Source: Acephala macrosclerotiorum (lineage: Eukaryota; Ascomycota; Leotiomycetes; Helotiales; Mollisiaceae). Taken from it: DNA of 64,000 nucleotides. Shown here one piece after another: positions 20,098 through 29,337 of the stretch. Positions within the stretch are counted from its first letter, which is position 1. Each line of letters begins with the position of its first letter. The notes under the pieces were generated by a model. It made no database searches. It was not told the origin of the DNA and saw only the letters and a program-made list of their open reading frames with translations. The translations under genes were made by a program, and so were the position numbers. Location of the stretch: positions 1 through 64,000 of the forward strand of contig MU119426.1 in assembly GCA_014904845.1 (NCBI GenBank), written 5' to 3'.

Positions 20098-23000
20098 CTA
20101 CGGCGCGAGAACCAAAGCCAACAATGCCATGCGGATATATAATCCATATCTCATCTAGTCATCTGTCAGTATACCATCCAAAATGGAGAAAGGGAATGAA
20201 GTTCACCTGTCTGAAATACGCTGCTCTCTGATCAAAATCCACCTCCTCCCCAATCTCCCTATTTCTCGGTAACGGATGCATAACAACCATTTGCTCCTTT
20301 GCATTCCTCAACGTCTTATTATCCACGATGAAGCTATCCTTCAACCTCTCATACTCATCCAAGTCCTCGAATCGCTCCTTCTGAACTCTGGTGCAGTAGA
20401 GGACATCACTGCGGGCGATGATCTCGGGTGTGAGCTCGGTAGATTCGACAATGAGCTGCCCAGGCTTAGATTTGATGATGTCCCGGATGTATGATGGGAT
20501 GGAGAGTGCCTTGGGGGAAACGAGCTGAATGTTGACGTCGTAGTGTTGAAGTAGCTTGACCAGGGAGTGAACGGTTCGTCCGTATTTGAGATCGCCAGTG
20601 AAGGTAATGGTCAAGCCGGTGACGGTGCCAAGCTCCTCTCGAATGGTGAACAAGTCGAGGAATGCCTGTGTAGGGTGCTCCTTGCTGCCATTGCCTCCGT
20701 TGAGAATTGGTACAGGGGAGAACTTGGCAGCAGTCTCAGCACTGCTCTCGTCAGGATGGCGGAGAACGATGGCATCGCCATAGCAGCCGAGAGTTCGAAT
20801 GGAGTCTGCCAAGGATTCGCCCTTCTGTGTACTGGAGTGGGTCGTCGCGATGGCGACAGTGCGACCACCAAGTCGTTGCATTGCTGCATCGAATGAAGCA
20901 GAGGTTCGTGTTGAGGGCTCGTAGAACATGGTCATCAGAACTCTACCCTTTAGGATCGACAGAACACCCTCGCGCTGCACACCTAGACGCATCTCCTGAG
21001 CGACAGTAAACAGCAAATGAAGATCCTGTCTATTGAACTGGTTCACAGAGATGACATGCTGGTTCTTCAACGGCGACTGTGCGAGAAGTGAGGCCAGGGA
21101 TGGAGAAATCGATGGCTGAGGGTACAACGCAGGTCCGAAATCGTCGGCGTTCGATCGCTGAGGTGATTGACTAGTACCATCCAGGAATCGTGATCGATTA
21201 GCAGCGCGCATAGCCGGACCACCGAGCATGGATTGGCGACGACCATGAAACCCAGGGGAGCTGTCTGATCTTGGACCAAGTGCAGGTGATCCAATTGCCT
21301 TCATGGGTGGCGACAGAGGGTTTTGGGGTAGGTGCGCATCGATCAAATGTGAAGACATGTCCTTGCCATCAGCCAGGTCGCAAGTAGGTTCGCCATCCAA
21401 GCAAGCAGTCTTGTCTTGGAAGATCACTCGTTGAACAGATCCATGCATCTTCTTCCCAACGAAAGGCGACCAGATATTTCCTGCAGTGAAGGTATACGAG
21501 CGGTCGATCTCGATCTCAACCGAGGCGCCAACTTGGTCATGAAGCTCAAAGATTTCCTTGGGGTTGTCGTGAAGTCGAGCTTTGATGTCGTCGACCGTGA
21601 GTCTTCCTTCTGCAACGGCCGTGAAGAGGAGTGGTAGGGTGTCGGCAATGCCAATTGCAGCATTCGGGGCTTGATTAGCAGCATGAGCTAGTTGGTATGG
21701 CAAGCTTCCGATAGAAAAGACATCGATGGTGCTCATATGCTCCCATAGGGCGTTCTGGTCCTCGGCGGTAGGCAGAAACTTGGCTTCAGGGAAGTCATCT
21801 TGGGACAAGAATAGAGAGTACACGGAAACATCACAGGTGACTCTCAGACCCTTCTCCTTTGACAACGCAATCAATTGTATATCATCCTTCGTGGTGACGC
21901 TGTTGACATGGATCTTTCTGCTGTGAAGACTGGCAAGAAGCAAGATTGAAGCGAGATCAGTCCTCTTCGCATCCGTCACAATTGGCTTGAAGCTTGGCCA
22001 CGCGCCGAAATGAGCTGTGACGGCAGCAACCTTGCTGATGTTGTCGTTGTCTGACAGATGATTGAATGGAATGAAGAGCGACCCAACTTCACCAGTGACA
22101 TGGCTGATTTGATCGGCATTGGCAGAAGTAGCTGCGACAGAAAAGTTGTAATCGCATCCAGCTTTCTTGGCGTTCTTCTGCGCTGTCTTCAATGCCCGTG
22201 CATCAGTCACCGAACCTTCAAGACCAAGAGGCATGATCCGGATCATGCTGAAACCAGACGCAATCGATGCCCGCGTCACAGTCTGGAAGTCGTGGCTACC
22301 AGCAACTGCGATACCAGGAACGAATGCAGCAATGTTAATCAGGCCTGGAAGGACCACGGTTCGGTGGCTAGTCTGGGCATCAATGGCACTGATCTCGAGG
22401 TCGAAGTGGCGTGCAATAGCCTCAATGAGAATTTTGGCATTCTTGACATTGGTAACCAACGGAGTTTGGTAGTCCACAGCCATTCGTCGAGTTCGGTAAC
22501 CCTTGCTCATGTAGTTTGCTGGTCGTCTGTAGCGATTGCTGGATGGCAGATTGATGTACAGATCAATCATGTTGTTGGAAAGATGCTGAGTCAAAGAGAA
22601 TTCCGACTTCTGGTCATCATCATCCTTGCCAAGAATCTCGAGGTATTGAACCGGAACGTCGTGCTCCTGCAAGAAATCGGCAGTACCAGCGGTGGCGAAT
22701 AACTTGTAGCCCATTCGGTTGAGCTTGGCGACAGATGGCAGCATCTCCTTTTTATCCTTGTAAGATCCAATTGAGAGTAGAATGTTGCGATTTGGAAGCT
22801 TGAAACCAGTGGAAATCAAGGCCTTGATGTAGGCTTCATACTTGTCGACACCGAAACAAGCAACTTCTCCAGTCGATGCCATCTCCACACCAAGGACCGG
22901 ATCGGCTCCAGACAAACGGGAGAAGCTGAACTGTGGCACCTTGACACCAACGCAGTTCGGGGGCAGTAGAGTAGGCGGGTATTCGACAAATGGAATGCCC

Positions 23001-26000
23001 ATGATAGCCTTGGTTGCCATCTCAATCAAATCAACTCCCATGACCTTCGAAACGAATGGGGTTGATCGAGATGCTCGAACGTTGCATTCAATGACCTTAA
23101 TATCATTGTCCTTTGCAATGAATTGAATGTTGAAAGGACCAGTAATGTTCAGGGCTTCACCAATCTTGCGAGTTGCTTCTTCGATTCGTTGGATAGTTGT
23201 CGGCTCGAGATCTTGAGGTGGGAGGATCAAGGTTGCATCACCAGAGTGAACTCCAGCATTTTCCACATGCTCTGAAATAAAGTGGCCAACCATTTTCTAA
23301 TGATAAGTTAGTAAATGTATGAGATTCGCGCTCAGAAGTCGGAAGTCCAGAATTCCAGGAAAGAAGATAATGGTGCGCGAAAGTCCGAAACTCCAGGAGT
23401 CCAGCAGTCCAGGAATTTGGACAGCGTCCAAAAAGGTCCAAAAAGGTCCAAAAAGAGGTTCCAGAACTGCCCTTAATCGAGCTTAGAGCTCGACTGGGCA
23501 GCTGTTGGAGCAGCCTTCGCAGCCTCAGCCTCCATCTTGAGATGGCGGACTGACTTGAGATGCTGGTTGTACTCGCCCAACTTGTCGCAGCCCCAGCTGC
23601 AGAGAGTACACACATGCGGCTTCGCAAGATACTCCTCCTTCTTGAGGTGATTGACCGAGCTATTATGCTTATCTAAGGCATACGCGCCATTAAGAGCTAC
23701 CTTGCAGAGTTCACAATAAAACTCCTTGCTCTCGACGGTTGCTCCTCGGCGCTTCTTATCCTGTTCCCGGAATTTTTCCGGATCCGCCGCTCGATACTCT
23801 CTTATTTGCTCAGTTTTCACGCCGACGAATTGCTTGGGATCGTTGGCCATACGCATTGCACGCTATTCCAAATTATACTCAGTCGTGGCGGCGTTTCGTT
23901 TCATCATCTTCTCGGCGTTAAGCTCCTCCAGCTCCTTTTCAGAAAGCTCATAGTTGCCAAGGATCGATTCATTGAGACAGCAATGCGAGCATAAGCCATC
24001 GTACTCCAGCGTGTTTCGATCCCAGAGACAAATATGGCCCATGCCATAGTCGTTGGCCTTGTTGACAGTTCGCATCGCCCAGAATATATAAGCGAAGGCA
24101 GCTTCTAGCGTGAGAAAAAGGAGGCGGATCTTGAGAACCAAGCCAGGAGACGGAAGATCAATCCAGCAGAGTAATCCCATGTGCTCAATACTGTAGCCCT
24201 CTTTAATCGACTTTTCGACGTAGGAAGGGAGATTGGATCCAGCACGATAGTCCGCAAAGCGATTTTTGACACCTTCGGTGGCGCTGGTTCCACTGCCTAT
24301 ATAGATACGAGGTCGACAATAGGCTTTTTCCAGCACCAGAAGGTGCACAGCCTAGCGCTTGGGGGTTCCCCTGATGATTGTTGGAAGGGTCTTGAAGTAC
24401 CGAATGGTGGGCGGCGTAGAAGCTTGTATGACCTCAAATAGGCCAGGGGCAAAGACAAGGGACACTGCCGAAGCCAGATTCTCCAAGACAGCTTGGCTGG
24501 GGATGTACTTCGTGTAGTGCGCCTGCTTTTGACTTGCTGGCGTACCGTTCAGAACGGTCTAGGTAATCAGCAACACCAGCTGGAGGAGAGTCTCTGCTTG
24601 GAACGCCATGATTCTACAACTATTAGCATTACATTGTCGCATCCATTAGAGTATAGAGACTTACGCTGAAATCGGTGCCACCGATTGTCCAGAAGAGAGA
24701 GCCCTTGGCTATGGAGGCATGGAAGGGAAATATCCAGCAGAAGAGACAATGCCTGGTTGTGAAGCCAGAGGAGAGAGGTACCCAGCAGAACAGCAGAAAG
24801 GAAACGGAGCAGCAGTGCTGGACGCGGAATTGTCGAAGCTTGGACACGGTCGAAGAGGCCAGCAAACAAAAAAAATGAAAGTCGCTGAGGCAAGCCATCC
24901 AGAAGGAAGGAAGGTCTATCAAGGGCAGGAACATCCGGTTAAGTTAGGGAGACGGGGAAAAGGAAAAACATTTACTCACACCACCCTGGGCAACAGCATC
25001 CATCTCAATCTCCTTGGCGTTCTCAATGTACTTGGTGATGACAACTGGATGTTCTCGTGAAACCTCGGCAGCTTGAGCAAGGTATGCTTCTAGATCAGCC
25101 TCAGAATAGACGGTGTTCATGGCTGCACCGGACAAAACGTAGGAGGGTCGAACCAAGACTGGATACGAGACCGTGTTGCAGAAAACCTTGGCATCTTCAA
25201 AGCTGGTCAACTCCTTCCATGTTGGCTGATCAACCTCGATTCTATCCAGCATACGAGAGAACTTGTATCTATTCTCAGCAGTATCGATCATTTCCGGCGA
25301 TGTACCTAGAACCTTGACATTGAGACGATGCAAGGGTAGTGCAATGTTGTTTGGCGTCTGTCCACCCATGGCGATGAGGACACCGCTTGAGCTCTCGAGT
25401 TGGTAGATGTCGAGAATGGTTTCCAAGTTGATGTTCTCGAAGTAAAGTCGGTCTGCTTCATCATAATCCGTACTGACGGTCTCGGGATTGTAGTTAACCA
25501 TGACGGTCTTGAATCCAGATTCACGGAGGGTTCTGATTGCCCGAACAGAGCACCAATCGAACTCGACGCTGCTGCCGATTCGATACTGTAGGTTCTCTAA
25601 GTCAGTATTGCCTAGAGAGGTGGAACGTAGGAGTCATGGTAATGTCTCAAAAGTACTTTTGAGACACTCGAAATAGGAGATAGAACTCCGAGAATTGGAG
25701 GACTTACGACGCCCGACCCCAAAACCATAACACCATGATCATTAAAGGTGATATCATTTTCAGATCCATTATATGTCAAGTAAAGATAATTCGTCCAAGC
25801 AGGGTACTCTGCAGCGACCGTATCAATCTGCTTGACGACGGGAACAATTCCAGCCTCGATTCTCAATCGGCGAACGGCCAATTCGTTCGAACTCCAGAAC
25901 TTGGCCAGCTGACGATCGCAGAAGCCAAGTTGCTTGGCTTGGCGCAGGAGGTTCATGCTGATGGTGCTTGCATTGTAGGTCGTCATCGTCTTGCCAAAGT

Positions 26001-29000
26001 CGCTCAGACCCTTCAGCCTGCTCAAGAACCACTTGTCAATCTTAGTCATTTCCCAGATCTTATCGACAGAGTACCCTGAATGCATGGCGTTGGCAATAGC
26101 GAAGAGACGTTGATCGGATGGTGTTTGGAGCTCGTCATCAATAGACATCAAGGCCTTTGTGTCATTGAAGCCGAGGTTGTGGAAGTCGATGGCACGAATT
26201 GCTTTTTGAATGGCTTCCTCGAAGGTCCTACCAATACTCATGACTTCACCTACACTTTTCATCGAGGATCCGAGCTGAGTGGAGACACGAGTGAACTTTT
26301 TCAAATCCCATCTGGGCATCTTGACCACAACGTAATCGAGTGAAGGCTCGAAGCAGGCGCATGTGACCTTGGTGACGGAGTTCGAAATCTTGTTCAGAGG
26401 GATACCTAGACCGAGCTTAGCGGCAATGAATGCCAAAGGGTACCCTGTAGCTTTCGATGCCAACGCTGAAGATCGAGATAATCTGGCATTGACTTCGATA
26501 ATACAGTACTCTCGAGAGAATGGGTTGAGAGCGTACTGGATGTTGCACTCTCCAACAACACCAAGATGTCTGATAACGTTGACTGCAGTAGTTCGAAGCA
26601 TGTTGTAGTCTTCATCAGAGAGCGTCTGAGATGGGGCAACAACGATAGAGTCGCCAGTATGGATTCCGAGAGGATCGAAGTTCTCCATATTACAAACAGT
26701 GATGCAGTTGTCTCGTGCATCTCGAACGACTTCGTACTCGATCTCCTTCCACCCTTTCATACTTCTTTCAATCAGGACCTGGGGACTCGCAGCAAATGCC
26801 TTGTTGCAGAGGTCAAACAGTTCCTTCTCGTTGTCTGCGAAACCACTGCCGAGTCCACCAAGAGCATATGCAGCTCGAACAATGACAGGGAAGCCGATGT
26901 TTTTCACGACACTCATGGCTTCGTCGATGTTGTTTGCAGAAGCAGACTTGGCACACTTCTCGCCAATCGATTCCATACTGCGGGCAAATAGTTCTCGGTC
27001 TTCAGTAGTGATGATGGTATCAATCGGAGTACCAAGGACCTTCACACCAAGCTCTTCAAATTCGTCCTTCAATTGAATGCCGACCTGCAATGCTGTCTGA
27101 CCACCAAAGGTGACATAGATTGCATCTGGACGCTCGTGGACAATAACCTTCCTCACGAACTCAGCTGTTACTGGCAAGAAGTAGACCTTGTCAGCCAATC
27201 CTTTGGATGTTTGAATGGTCGCGATGTTTGGGTTGATCAGAATAGTTGTCAAGCCCTCCTCCGTCAACGCTTTGAGGGCTTGACTTCCAGAGTAATCGAA
27301 TTCTCCAGCTTGACCAATACTAAGACCACCAGACCCTAAAACGAGAACCTAGAGATGAGTTAGCCAGAGTAAATATCGAGTCCAGATATAGTAAAAAGTC
27401 CGGGTCCACAAGTCCAAAAGGGTCCAAAAAGAGGTTCCAGGGTTAGAGATATGCCCCCAGTCGAGCTGAGAGCTCGACAAGGTAGCTGCCATCTCTATGT
27501 GACGCTTGCTCTTGAAGTGCCTTTTCAAAGTGCCACCTGGTCGAAAGCAACGTTGCAGAGAAGCAGTCGGAATAGATATCTAGCAGAGCAGCCAGCAAAG
27601 CAGCCAGCAGAGAATCCCTGGGTCTCCTCTGGGTCCAGAGTTCAGCTTGACGGTATCCAGGAAATTGATTCCAGATATCAAGTTAGCAATCTGTTCCACA
27701 GCAGATGTGAATCTTGAACTTGCAACCAGACAGCTGGGTAGTCGACAGCAACGTTCCGTCGACTCGATAGTATCCGTTGGCAGACTCTTGAAGTACTGTT
27801 ATATTGGGGGTGTAGCAGCTTGAAGGACATCGAAAAGTTCTAGAGCAAGAACCAGGGAAATTATCTAGGCAGCAGATCCATCCAGAGGGCAGGGGCGTCC
27901 AGTCGGGGCAAAAAGAAACACAACAACATTACCTTTTTAACATTGACCTTAGGGTGTAATCTCTCGGTTTCAGCGGCATCTCCGCCTGGGAATTTGACGG
28001 GTGCTGTGAGAACCTTGGTGTCCTTTAAGGAGTCCACAATCGTGTTGATGAAGACATCGAAGAGAAATTCAGTATCTCGTGGGCCAGGCGTGCTCTCAGG
28101 ATGGAATTGAACACTGAAGTAAGGTCTGCTGACATGGCGAATACCCTCGTTGCTACCATCATTGGCATTCACGAACAGCTCTGTCCACTCAGCCGGCAAG
28201 GTAGCTGTATCAACAGCGAAACCATGGTTCTGCGATGTGATGTGACATTTTCCAGTCAACATGTTGGTGCAGGGAATGTTGTGTCCACGATTTCCAAATT
28301 TCATCTTCAATGTGCTCGCGCCTGCAGCTCTAGCCAGCAGTTGATGACCTAGACAGATACCGAAGATGGGTGTGCGGTTCTCTTGCATGGCAGATGCAAT
28401 GTGATTGACGGTCTTGGCCATCATGGCAGGGTCACCAGGACCGTTGGAGATGAACAGTCCATCGTAGTCCTTACCAGCAAGGGCTGGGAAGTCGTAGTCC
28501 CATGGGCAGACAAGCACTTCTACGCCTCTTTTTACCAAGCAACGCAATTGATTGTATTTCAGTCCAACATCCAGGCACAATACACGTACGGGTCTACCAG
28601 ACGGGTGTTTCAAGGCAATCGAAGGATTTGGGGAATATAATTTTAGTTTGCGGATGGAGACTAAGTAGAAATGTTAGCCCAGAACTTTGGGCTATGCATG
28701 AGGACTCACCATCTGCGACGAGGTTCTGTGCATTGGGGTTCACCCAGTCGATTGTCTCGAAAAAAGATCGCCAGGACTCTGAGGTGATCGCAGATGTGCC
28801 ATTGGTAAGCTCATTCGACAAGCCGTTGGTGAGTGCCTGTTTCTGGACCAGCATGCGTCCAAGCATGCTTCCCTCCTCTCGAATTCTCTTAGTCAATGCT
28901 CTTGTATCCACACCATACATTGCAGGTATGCCTTGTTCCTTCAACCACGTCCCGAGGGAAGATGTTGCGAGGAAGTGTGAAAAGTCTTCGCCCGAGTAGG

Positions 29001-29337
29001 ATGCAGTGACTAGACCGGCGATATGGATCTGCGAGGACTCGAAATATGCTGGCAGATCTTTGAGGAGATCATCCATTGTCTCTCGCGAAGGTACACCATA
29101 GTTGCCCACCAAAGGGAACGTAATGACCAAGATTTGTCCACGGTAGGAGGGGTCGGTTATAGATTCAGGGTACCCCACCATACCAGTTTGGAATACCAAT
29201 TCTCCAGCAATGCTCTTCTCCGCTCCGAAGCTGTATCCCTGGTAAACGACGCCATCTTGGAGCTCAAGAGCAATTCGACCTTCGCCATCGTGTTGCGCCG
29301 TAACGGGGGGGTACACTGTGGCCATACTGGCGACCAT
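20098..29337 (-). CDS. URA2: Multifunctional CPSase / DHOase-like / aspartate transcarbamylase, 2,249 aa
   Basis: First two steps of de novo pyrimidine synthesis: glutamine to carbamoyl phosphate, then to carbamoyl aspartate. Exons: 29337-28710, 28660-27933, 27348-25708, 25585-24980, 23296-20207 and 20154-20098, all in phase. Order: glutaminase with nucleophile segment GICLGHQLL in exon 2; the two CPSase halves (exons 3, 4 and the start of 5); a DHOase-like domain whose metal-binding HxH position reads [10 protein letters not shown], so it is inactive as usual in fungi; ATCase with PSTRTSASF and HPTQAFLDL, ending [13 protein letters not shown]. Length fits yeast Ura2 (2,214 aa). Introns are 49, 584, 122, 1,683 and 52 bp; the two long ones are related mobile-looking units. 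An in-frame ATG at 29325 is an alternative start. Confidence 0.95.
23473..24609 (-). pseudogene. GIY-YIG nuclease-like ORF with two C2H2 zinc fingers, three in-frame TAGs
   Basis: One continuous frame of 378 codons from ATG 24609 to TAA 23473, interrupted only by TAG at 24561-24559, 24354-24352 and 23865-23863. Order: an N-terminal segment ([20 protein letters not shown]) with helical character; the GIY-YIG-like core ([20 protein letters not shown], then GVKNRFADY with the likely catalytic Arg); a segment with [21 protein letters not shown]; and two U1-type C2H2 fingers (FYCELC...H...H and HVCTLC...H...H). By family, GIY-YIG proteins nick DNA, and fingers of this type bind nucleic acid. Each TAG could be a former CAG. 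It is probably a recently inactivated copy; readthrough cannot be excluded. The homing idea is inference from its position. Confidence 0.75.
24614..24664 (-). other. Putative nested 51-bp intron upstream of the nuclease ORF
   Basis: On the minus strand GTAAGTCTCT at 24664 and GCTAATAGTTGTAG ending at 24614 form a complete small intron signature four bases before the ORF's ATG. It would sit in the leader of a transcript made from the element itself, suggesting an independent gene nested in the host intron. Confidence 0.45.
25586..25707 (-). other. 122-bp intron of the pyrimidine gene containing a 24-bp palindrome
   Basis: GTAAGT donor at 25707 and CTACAG acceptor at 25586. In its middle, 25643-25666 is a perfect self-complementary sequence (12-base arm TGTCTCAAAAGT and its complement). 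The RNA could form a hairpin inside the intron. Confidence 0.85.
27349..27932 (-). mobile_element. 584-bp intron: internally deleted relative of the nuclease intron
   Basis: Intron between the glutaminase and CPSase parts (donor GTAATG, acceptor CTCTAG). It shares with the 1,683-bp intron a 20-base identical stretch (27421-27440 versus 23445-23464), the nearby GAGCT.AGAGCTCGAC motif, and the 5' part. Read in the nuclease ORF frame it gives [18 protein letters not shown], matching [18 protein letters not shown], and near the end [16 protein letters not shown]...SSSQLD, matching the last zinc finger and C-terminus. The GIY-YIG core is missing and stops are present. It looks like a non-autonomous or decayed derivative. 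Confidence 0.75.

Follow-up and report, generated by a model that had tools for sequence, protein, structure and literature searches.

The origin of new spliceosomal introns is a long-standing question, and one long intron in the nuclear genome of the fungus Acephala macrosclerotiorum raises it directly: how has a gene for a GIY-YIG-like nuclease with zinc fingers come to lie in an intron of the pyrimidine gene URA2, and did the nuclease bring the intron there? The intron lies in the window analysed here, a stretch of 64,000 nucleotides (assembly GCA_014904845.1, contig MU119426.1, positions 1 to 64,000). With moderate confidence we read it as a spliceosomal homing intron that belongs to a fungal nuclear genome and has decayed in the individual sequenced; we infer homing, cutting and splicing in vivo, as well as help of the zinc fingers in target finding. 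In anatomy and distribution the element looks like a shintron, the term used for spliceosomal introns with HNH, GIY-YIG or other nuclease genes in mirusviruses in a report of November 2025 (PMC12768974, Nat Microbiol), although the window holds a copy that is no longer intact. Owing to that publication, the contrast drawn in the first-pass annotation of this DNA, that GIY-YIG nucleases are typical of group I introns of organelles and phages and not of spliceosomal introns in nuclear genes, is outdated.

The host gene and its two introns of the nuclease kind are located as follows.

20159..29337, minus strand: host gene URA2/pyrABCN, a fused carbamoyl-phosphate synthase (CPSase) and aspartate carbamoyltransferase (ATCase), from Pfam on three exons and the spliced model; the span is given without the end past the last short intron
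23297..24979, minus strand: big intron of URA2, a long GT-AG spliceosomal intron that holds the nuclease element; splice signals read directly, conserved protein restored on splicing
27349..27932, minus strand: i2, second URA2 intron of the nuclease kind, 584 bp, with a decayed family copy (DNA match of 76% over 87 columns; protein match E 9.9e-6; profile match E 1.7e-6)

Read from the ATG at 29337 on the minus strand of the window, URA2 has modelled introns at 28709-28661 (49 bp), 27932-27349 (584 bp, i2), 25707-25586 (122 bp, i3) and 24979-23297 (1,683 bp, the big intron). Pfam recognises CPSase and ATCase domains in the exons, and the spliced model, which omits one more short intron near the 3′ end, is one unbroken protein of 2,246 amino acids. 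The 1,683-bp GT-AG intron of the first-pass annotation thus stands: its signals, GTGAGT ... TTTACTAAC ... TTAG, can be read directly, and its predicted removal fuses EMDAVAQGG to the downstream exon with the frame kept. The range of 43-122 bp given there for ordinary introns misses i2, which itself holds a relic of the family. The 122-bp i3 intron contains no nuclease; a perfect 24-base palindrome lies inside it (window 25643-25666).

The big intron itself contains the following parts.

24614..24664, minus strand: possible small intron in the element's leader, 51 bp, GTAAGT...GTTGTAG, ending four bases before the ATG (read directly)
23473..24609, minus strand: GIY-YIG and zinc-finger frame of 378 codons plus the stop, in sense with the host gene, from the ATG at 24609 to the TAA at 23475-23473, with three in-frame TAG
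24559..24561, minus strand: in-frame TAG at codon 17, where aligned relatives have tryptophan (Trp) in 6/6
24352..24354, minus strand: in-frame TAG at codon 86, where aligned relatives have Trp in 9/9
24067..24354, minus strand: GIY-YIG-like nuclease core, codons 86-181, from aligned residues; the YIG tyrosine (Tyr) and glycine, the arginine (Arg) and the glutamate (Glu) are retained, and the Tyr of the first motif is replaced by histidine (His)
23863..23865, minus strand: in-frame TAG at codon 249, where aligned relatives have Tyr in 11/13
23647..23721, minus strand: C2H2 zinc finger 1, zf-C2H2_jaz type (PF12171, E 7.5e-7, 29.6 bits against a cut-off of 22.6)
23542..23616, minus strand: second C2H2-like finger, under every Pfam cut-off (PF13894 E 0.055, PF00096 E 0.23)
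23476..23494, minus strand: C-terminal codons; as DNA they spell the near-palindrome GTCGAGCT-N3-AGCTCGAY, which tags the family (whole-genome pattern search)

The sense frame has exactly the 378 codons first reported, but it is not open, being interrupted by TAG at codons 17, 86 and 249, stops that the first-pass annotation passes over. It matches the metagenome protein P0001 at 78% identity over 257 residues with zero frameshifts, for which reason its decay looks recent and the frame is probably a recent pseudogene. Since three in-frame TAG are combined with the loss of a catalytic Tyr, this nuclease copy is probably dead. Repeat-induced point mutation (RIP) was rejected as the source of the stops on dinucleotide indices: for the intron, the exon and the window, TpA/ApT is 0.75, 0.37 and 0.76, the other index is 1.43, 1.50 and 1.26, respectively, and none of these values is at a level customarily read as RIP. 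Upstream of the frame, the 51-bp stretch 24664-24614 may be a small intron of the element's own leader; nuclear ribosomal DNA homing-endonuclease genes with spliceosomal introns inside them are reportedly on record. A near-palindrome ATCGGTGGCACCGAT lies 5′ of the ATG (window 24671-24685), recurs in the Hsp70 relic L002 (28 bases, 89%) and is a possible binding site or hairpin.

The assignment of the frame to GIY-YIG is supported by the predicted fold and by aligned residues. The structure predicted for P0001 shows a beta-beta-alpha-beta-alpha core as in I-TevI, and the family has a predicted N-terminal helical part. Among relatives the catalytic residues are Tyr in 10/10 and 12/12, Arg in 11/13 and Glu in 16/17, the sole relative lacking the Glu being P0001, the modelled protein; the big-intron copy has His at the first-motif Tyr that is present in 10 of 10 aligned relatives. 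The core named in the first-pass annotation is upheld to this extent, but Pfam is blind to it: its GIY-YIG model was not listed at E<=1 for any window piece or for any of six relatives, and PF01541 matches two other places in the genome, none of them a locus of the family. One of the two C2H2 fingers claimed there lies above a Pfam cut-off and the other does not. Together these results point to a GIY-YIG-like and zinc-finger nuclease family outside Pfam's recognition, and DNA cutting would be expected from such a fold. At a separate locus, L056 (C322:36064-36210), the Pfam GIY-YIG model does score above its cut-off, in a stretch interrupted by one in-frame TGA; no match to the family profile was reported there.

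Whether this frame stands alone was addressed by genome searches with window pieces, P0001, P0007, P0013, P0014, P0022 and one relic piece as queries; only the best candidates were scored, so copies may be missed. Family matches at E<=0.001 were confined to four contigs, C225 (URA2, two introns), C7, C170 and C22, and every one of them sits in sense in an intron of a conserved gene: two introns of URA2 and one each of an SSB-type Hsp70 (1,656 bp), aconitase (738 bp) and Pumilio (851 bp). No family copy was found outside introns of the assembly at this threshold among the candidates scored. Two shorter relics extend the set. Weak matches on C210 (E 0.21 and 0.35) represent a zinc-finger relic ending SSSKLD-stop in a 381-bp intron of the DED1 helicase gene, with a profile match at E 2.6e-5, and a 308-bp Hsp70 intron has its tail in common with the first Hsp70 copy at a score above all 200 shuffles. 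This makes seven introns of 308-1,683 bp in five genes, all sense and all with CTAAC or CTAAT ahead of the acceptor; URA2 and Hsp70 contain two copies each. Removal of the introns gives gap-free junctions in the DED1/DDX3X, aconitase, SSB1 and Pumilio proteins. The copies are divergent, with a core identity of 36-37% between the window copy and other loci, and the whole big intron as DNA query matched itself and i2 only.

The DED1 intron is tied to URA2 by a 19-base tag, GTCGAGCTCTAAGCTCGAC, for which sites with 0-1 mismatch number three in 69.7 Mb, namely in the DED1 intron, the big intron and i2. At <=2 mismatches the tag gave 10 match lines and the backward pattern, run as a control, gave 6; two of the 10 were the opposite strand of the same sites, and only the three 0-1-mismatch sites were used; at the five tag sites with two mismatches the family match was never better than E 1.3. 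The codons of the SSS(K/Q)LD C-terminus form the DNA near-palindrome, which is kept in decayed copies (window 23476-23494 and 27460-27478; L038, C210:51602-51620). In the aconitase intron L037 (C22:170679-171416) a core piece lies upstream of an N-terminal piece, and stretch 1296-1364 of L004 repeats 1756-1826 at 82%; the relic is rearranged and appears as if two former tandem copies had lost their middle. Candidates on C119 (E 0.009) and C3 (E 0.043) were rejected: they match the zinc-finger part only and lie in long open frames whose translations resemble zinc-finger proteins of other kinds, and the C3 profile match (E 3.4e-6) is confined to the fingers. Those on C11 (E 0.038) and C26 (E 0.34) were judged chance matches on reading.

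Beyond the genome, viral contigs gave zero DNA matches to the single family pattern used, 14 stretches of prokaryote genomes fitted the family pattern and 0 were confirmed, and phage records held no match for the 162-amino-acid core.

If the nuclease brought the introns, the sites should differ between relatives. The evidence on this point covers URA2 only and is inferred from protein starts. A search with the junction region listed 120 relatives, the best of 7,989 scored, with 83-96% identity to URA2 over the region compared; the closest named relative among them is a Mollisiaceae fungus (96%), which by itself makes a host of the Helotiales very probable. Among those listed, 21 predicted proteins of at least 1,900 amino acids, from contigs of 8.5-118 kb, start at residues 200-262 and run unbroken over i2, i3 and the big site. 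Because these starts fall after the first small intron, the proteins look like direct translations of genomic sequence, in which case i2, i3 and the big intron would be absent in those 21 relatives. As the 21 proteins run through both sites, i2 and the big intron look gained. A second search for shorter proteins only (120 listed of 648) contained 14 proteins whose first residues are precisely M(V/I)GHFISEHV. In the pooled rows (229 of 230, P0177 having been dropped for want of an anchor motif), breaks at the big site occur in 14/57 at >=88% identity (13 starts plus P0161), 1/133 at 80-88% and 0/39 below, in a non-random pool whose length limits favour through-running proteins in one search and breaks in the other. 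Proteins annotated by NCBI are spliced by annotation, count as running through and are uninformative on introns. The first-pass annotation had named a single copy fixed at the same place in all relatives as the outcome that would speak against it; instead, the genome has other copies, and many relatives lack an intron at the site.

Around the big site the picture is finer-grained. P0161 seems to read through an insertion of ~38 residues at the site with no nuclease in it; this insertion was rejected as a shrunken element copy, with no significant similarity and shuffles reaching its score in >=273/500. P0153 and P0166 look like read-in from introns a few codons upstream, so that introns may be accepted at more than one position in this region. 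Candidate insertion scars before the junction (K[DN]G to QGG, CGG etc.) were discarded, the same changes being common in through-running proteins. In several near relatives a protein start MVLGSGV lies just ahead of the i3 site, as if an intron were close by there as well.

In the homing mechanism that we propose, the unit would be an intron with its own splice signals and a sense GIY-YIG endonuclease gene with one or more C-terminal zinc fingers. The nuclease, encoded either by an allele that has the intron or by a copy residing in a different gene, would cut an intron-free target in a conserved gene, the zinc fingers assisting the target search, and repair templated by the intron-bearing copy would insert the intron. 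The host spliceosome would strip it from the mRNA, making the insertion cheap in an essential gene and precise loss the sole way out, and separate nuclease lineages would occupy separate genes. Such homing would explain the sense orientation, the restriction to introns, the gain of introns where relatives have none, the divergent copies in different genes and the decay after fixation. The homing-like element of the first-pass annotation gains support from the family of sense introns, the empty sites and the GIY-YIG-like fold, but not as a working copy, given three stops and a lost Tyr.

Several results weigh against homing. None of 22 metagenome relatives (0/22) is complete from the start to the zinc-finger end; each copy in the fungal genome carries stops or is truncated; and the big and i2 sites could not be supported as the most conserved parts of URA2, the site of the nuclease-free i3 being at the 95th percentile of conservation. 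Because no complete relative was seen, homing is weakened and the alternative is strengthened that the introns are older and a GIY-YIG gene entered later, as a mobile gene or small transposon with no preference for where it inserts, surviving only in introns. We consider this unlikely, but a serious competitor: the gene of the big intron may have entered introns gained earlier, and the outcome would look similar. It would fit the unremarkable conservation of both sites, the lack of a nuclease in i3 and the several neighbouring positions that introns near the big site seem to occupy, and the short insertion of P0161 suggests that a gene-free small intron may exist in a near relative. That protein could equally represent a copy losing its gene, though no similarity was found. 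Moreover, a gene landing anywhere should also be met between genes, where the space is expected to be larger than in introns, and no such copy was found in the assembly at E<=0.001; two genes hold two copies each, and, the nuclease aside, nothing was found able to move such a gene.

The apparent novelty of the URA2 introns, together with tails shared by copies in one gene as if by local spread, would also suit a DNA transposon of the introner type, equipped with a GIY-YIG enzyme, whose insertions at many sites generate new introns with no site-specific homing. We regard this as improbable, the copies being few, mutually divergent (core identity as above) and all in conserved genes. Three stops and a lost catalytic residue in the window copy, with no complete relative seen, are what one would expect of an ordinary nuclear pseudogene or immobile host gene nested in introns by chance; seven introns in five genes, always sense, make this very improbable, since five genes all in a sense intron would have a chance of (1/4)^5 ~0.001 even if half the genome were intron, and far lower with a realistic share. 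Slightly harder still to credit is an origin as a mitochondrial homing intron of group I or group II, transferred to the nucleus and since then dependent on the spliceosome. Fungal mitochondrial group I introns commonly carry GIY-YIG nucleases, but the present family has zinc fingers, a helical part at its N-terminus, a GC content of ~50% and a core unrecognised by the Pfam GIY-YIG model. In addition, Rfam found no group I or group II ribozyme, giving one chance long non-coding RNA match at E<=1 in window 23200-28100 and none at the gathering score in L035-L038.

An addition to the homing reading concerns the stops. The frame has TAG at all three, and at two of these positions Trp is invariant in relatives; the Hsp70 relic L035 (C7:365232-366887), which has a TGA and a TAA elsewhere, shows by eye a TAG at the Trp of its FWAMR motif, bringing the Trp-to-TAG cases to three. 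Adenosine-to-inosine (A-to-I) editing of UAG to UGG in the sexual stage is described for Fusarium and Neurospora (PMC4817773), and it is reported absent in Botrytis cinerea (PMC7306014). Botrytis belongs to the Helotiales. Such editing could conceivably restrict nuclease activity to times when a mating partner offers an empty site. We give this very little credence, because three TAG would arise by chance in ~1 in 27 if the three stop codons were equally likely, the third stop replaces a Tyr, His stands in place of the first catalytic Tyr, and no such editing was reported in B. cinerea.

Among known systems, the mirusvirus shintrons are the closest in anatomy. They are likewise GT-AG introns in core genes with no group I or group II signature, and GIY-YIG accounts for 132/334 of their nuclease genes; they differ in being viral and mostly in virion genes, whereas the fungal cases are in metabolic, chaperone, helicase and RNA-binding genes, and their nuclease is fused to zinc fingers. 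Group I introns of the I-TevI type are removed by a ribozyme, whereas removal by the spliceosome is predicted here, with no Rfam match. Introners are said to be mobile elements that create new spliceosomal introns, in which respect they are alike, but they occur as many similar copies per genome and not as few divergent, nuclease-bearing ones. Nuclear inteins (PRP8, VMA), reportedly selfish nucleases within fungal nuclear genes and in this alike, use nuclease families other than GIY-YIG and are removed from the protein rather than from the RNA. In the open-access literature searched, which leaves most subscription journals and bioRxiv outside, no report of spliceosomal homing introns in cellular genomes was found.

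These observations suggest that ordinary spliceosomal introns may also have spread by homing in a cellular genome. We propose, more tentatively than for the element itself, that fungal nuclear genomes host self-propagating spliceosomal homing introns that create introns in essential genes through nuclease-driven copying, cross species and, being hidden in introns, are missed by annotation. If true, nuclease-driven homing would be a testable route of intron gain in conserved nuclear genes of cellular organisms, would account for patchy long introns in housekeeping genes and would extend the viral shintrons to cells.
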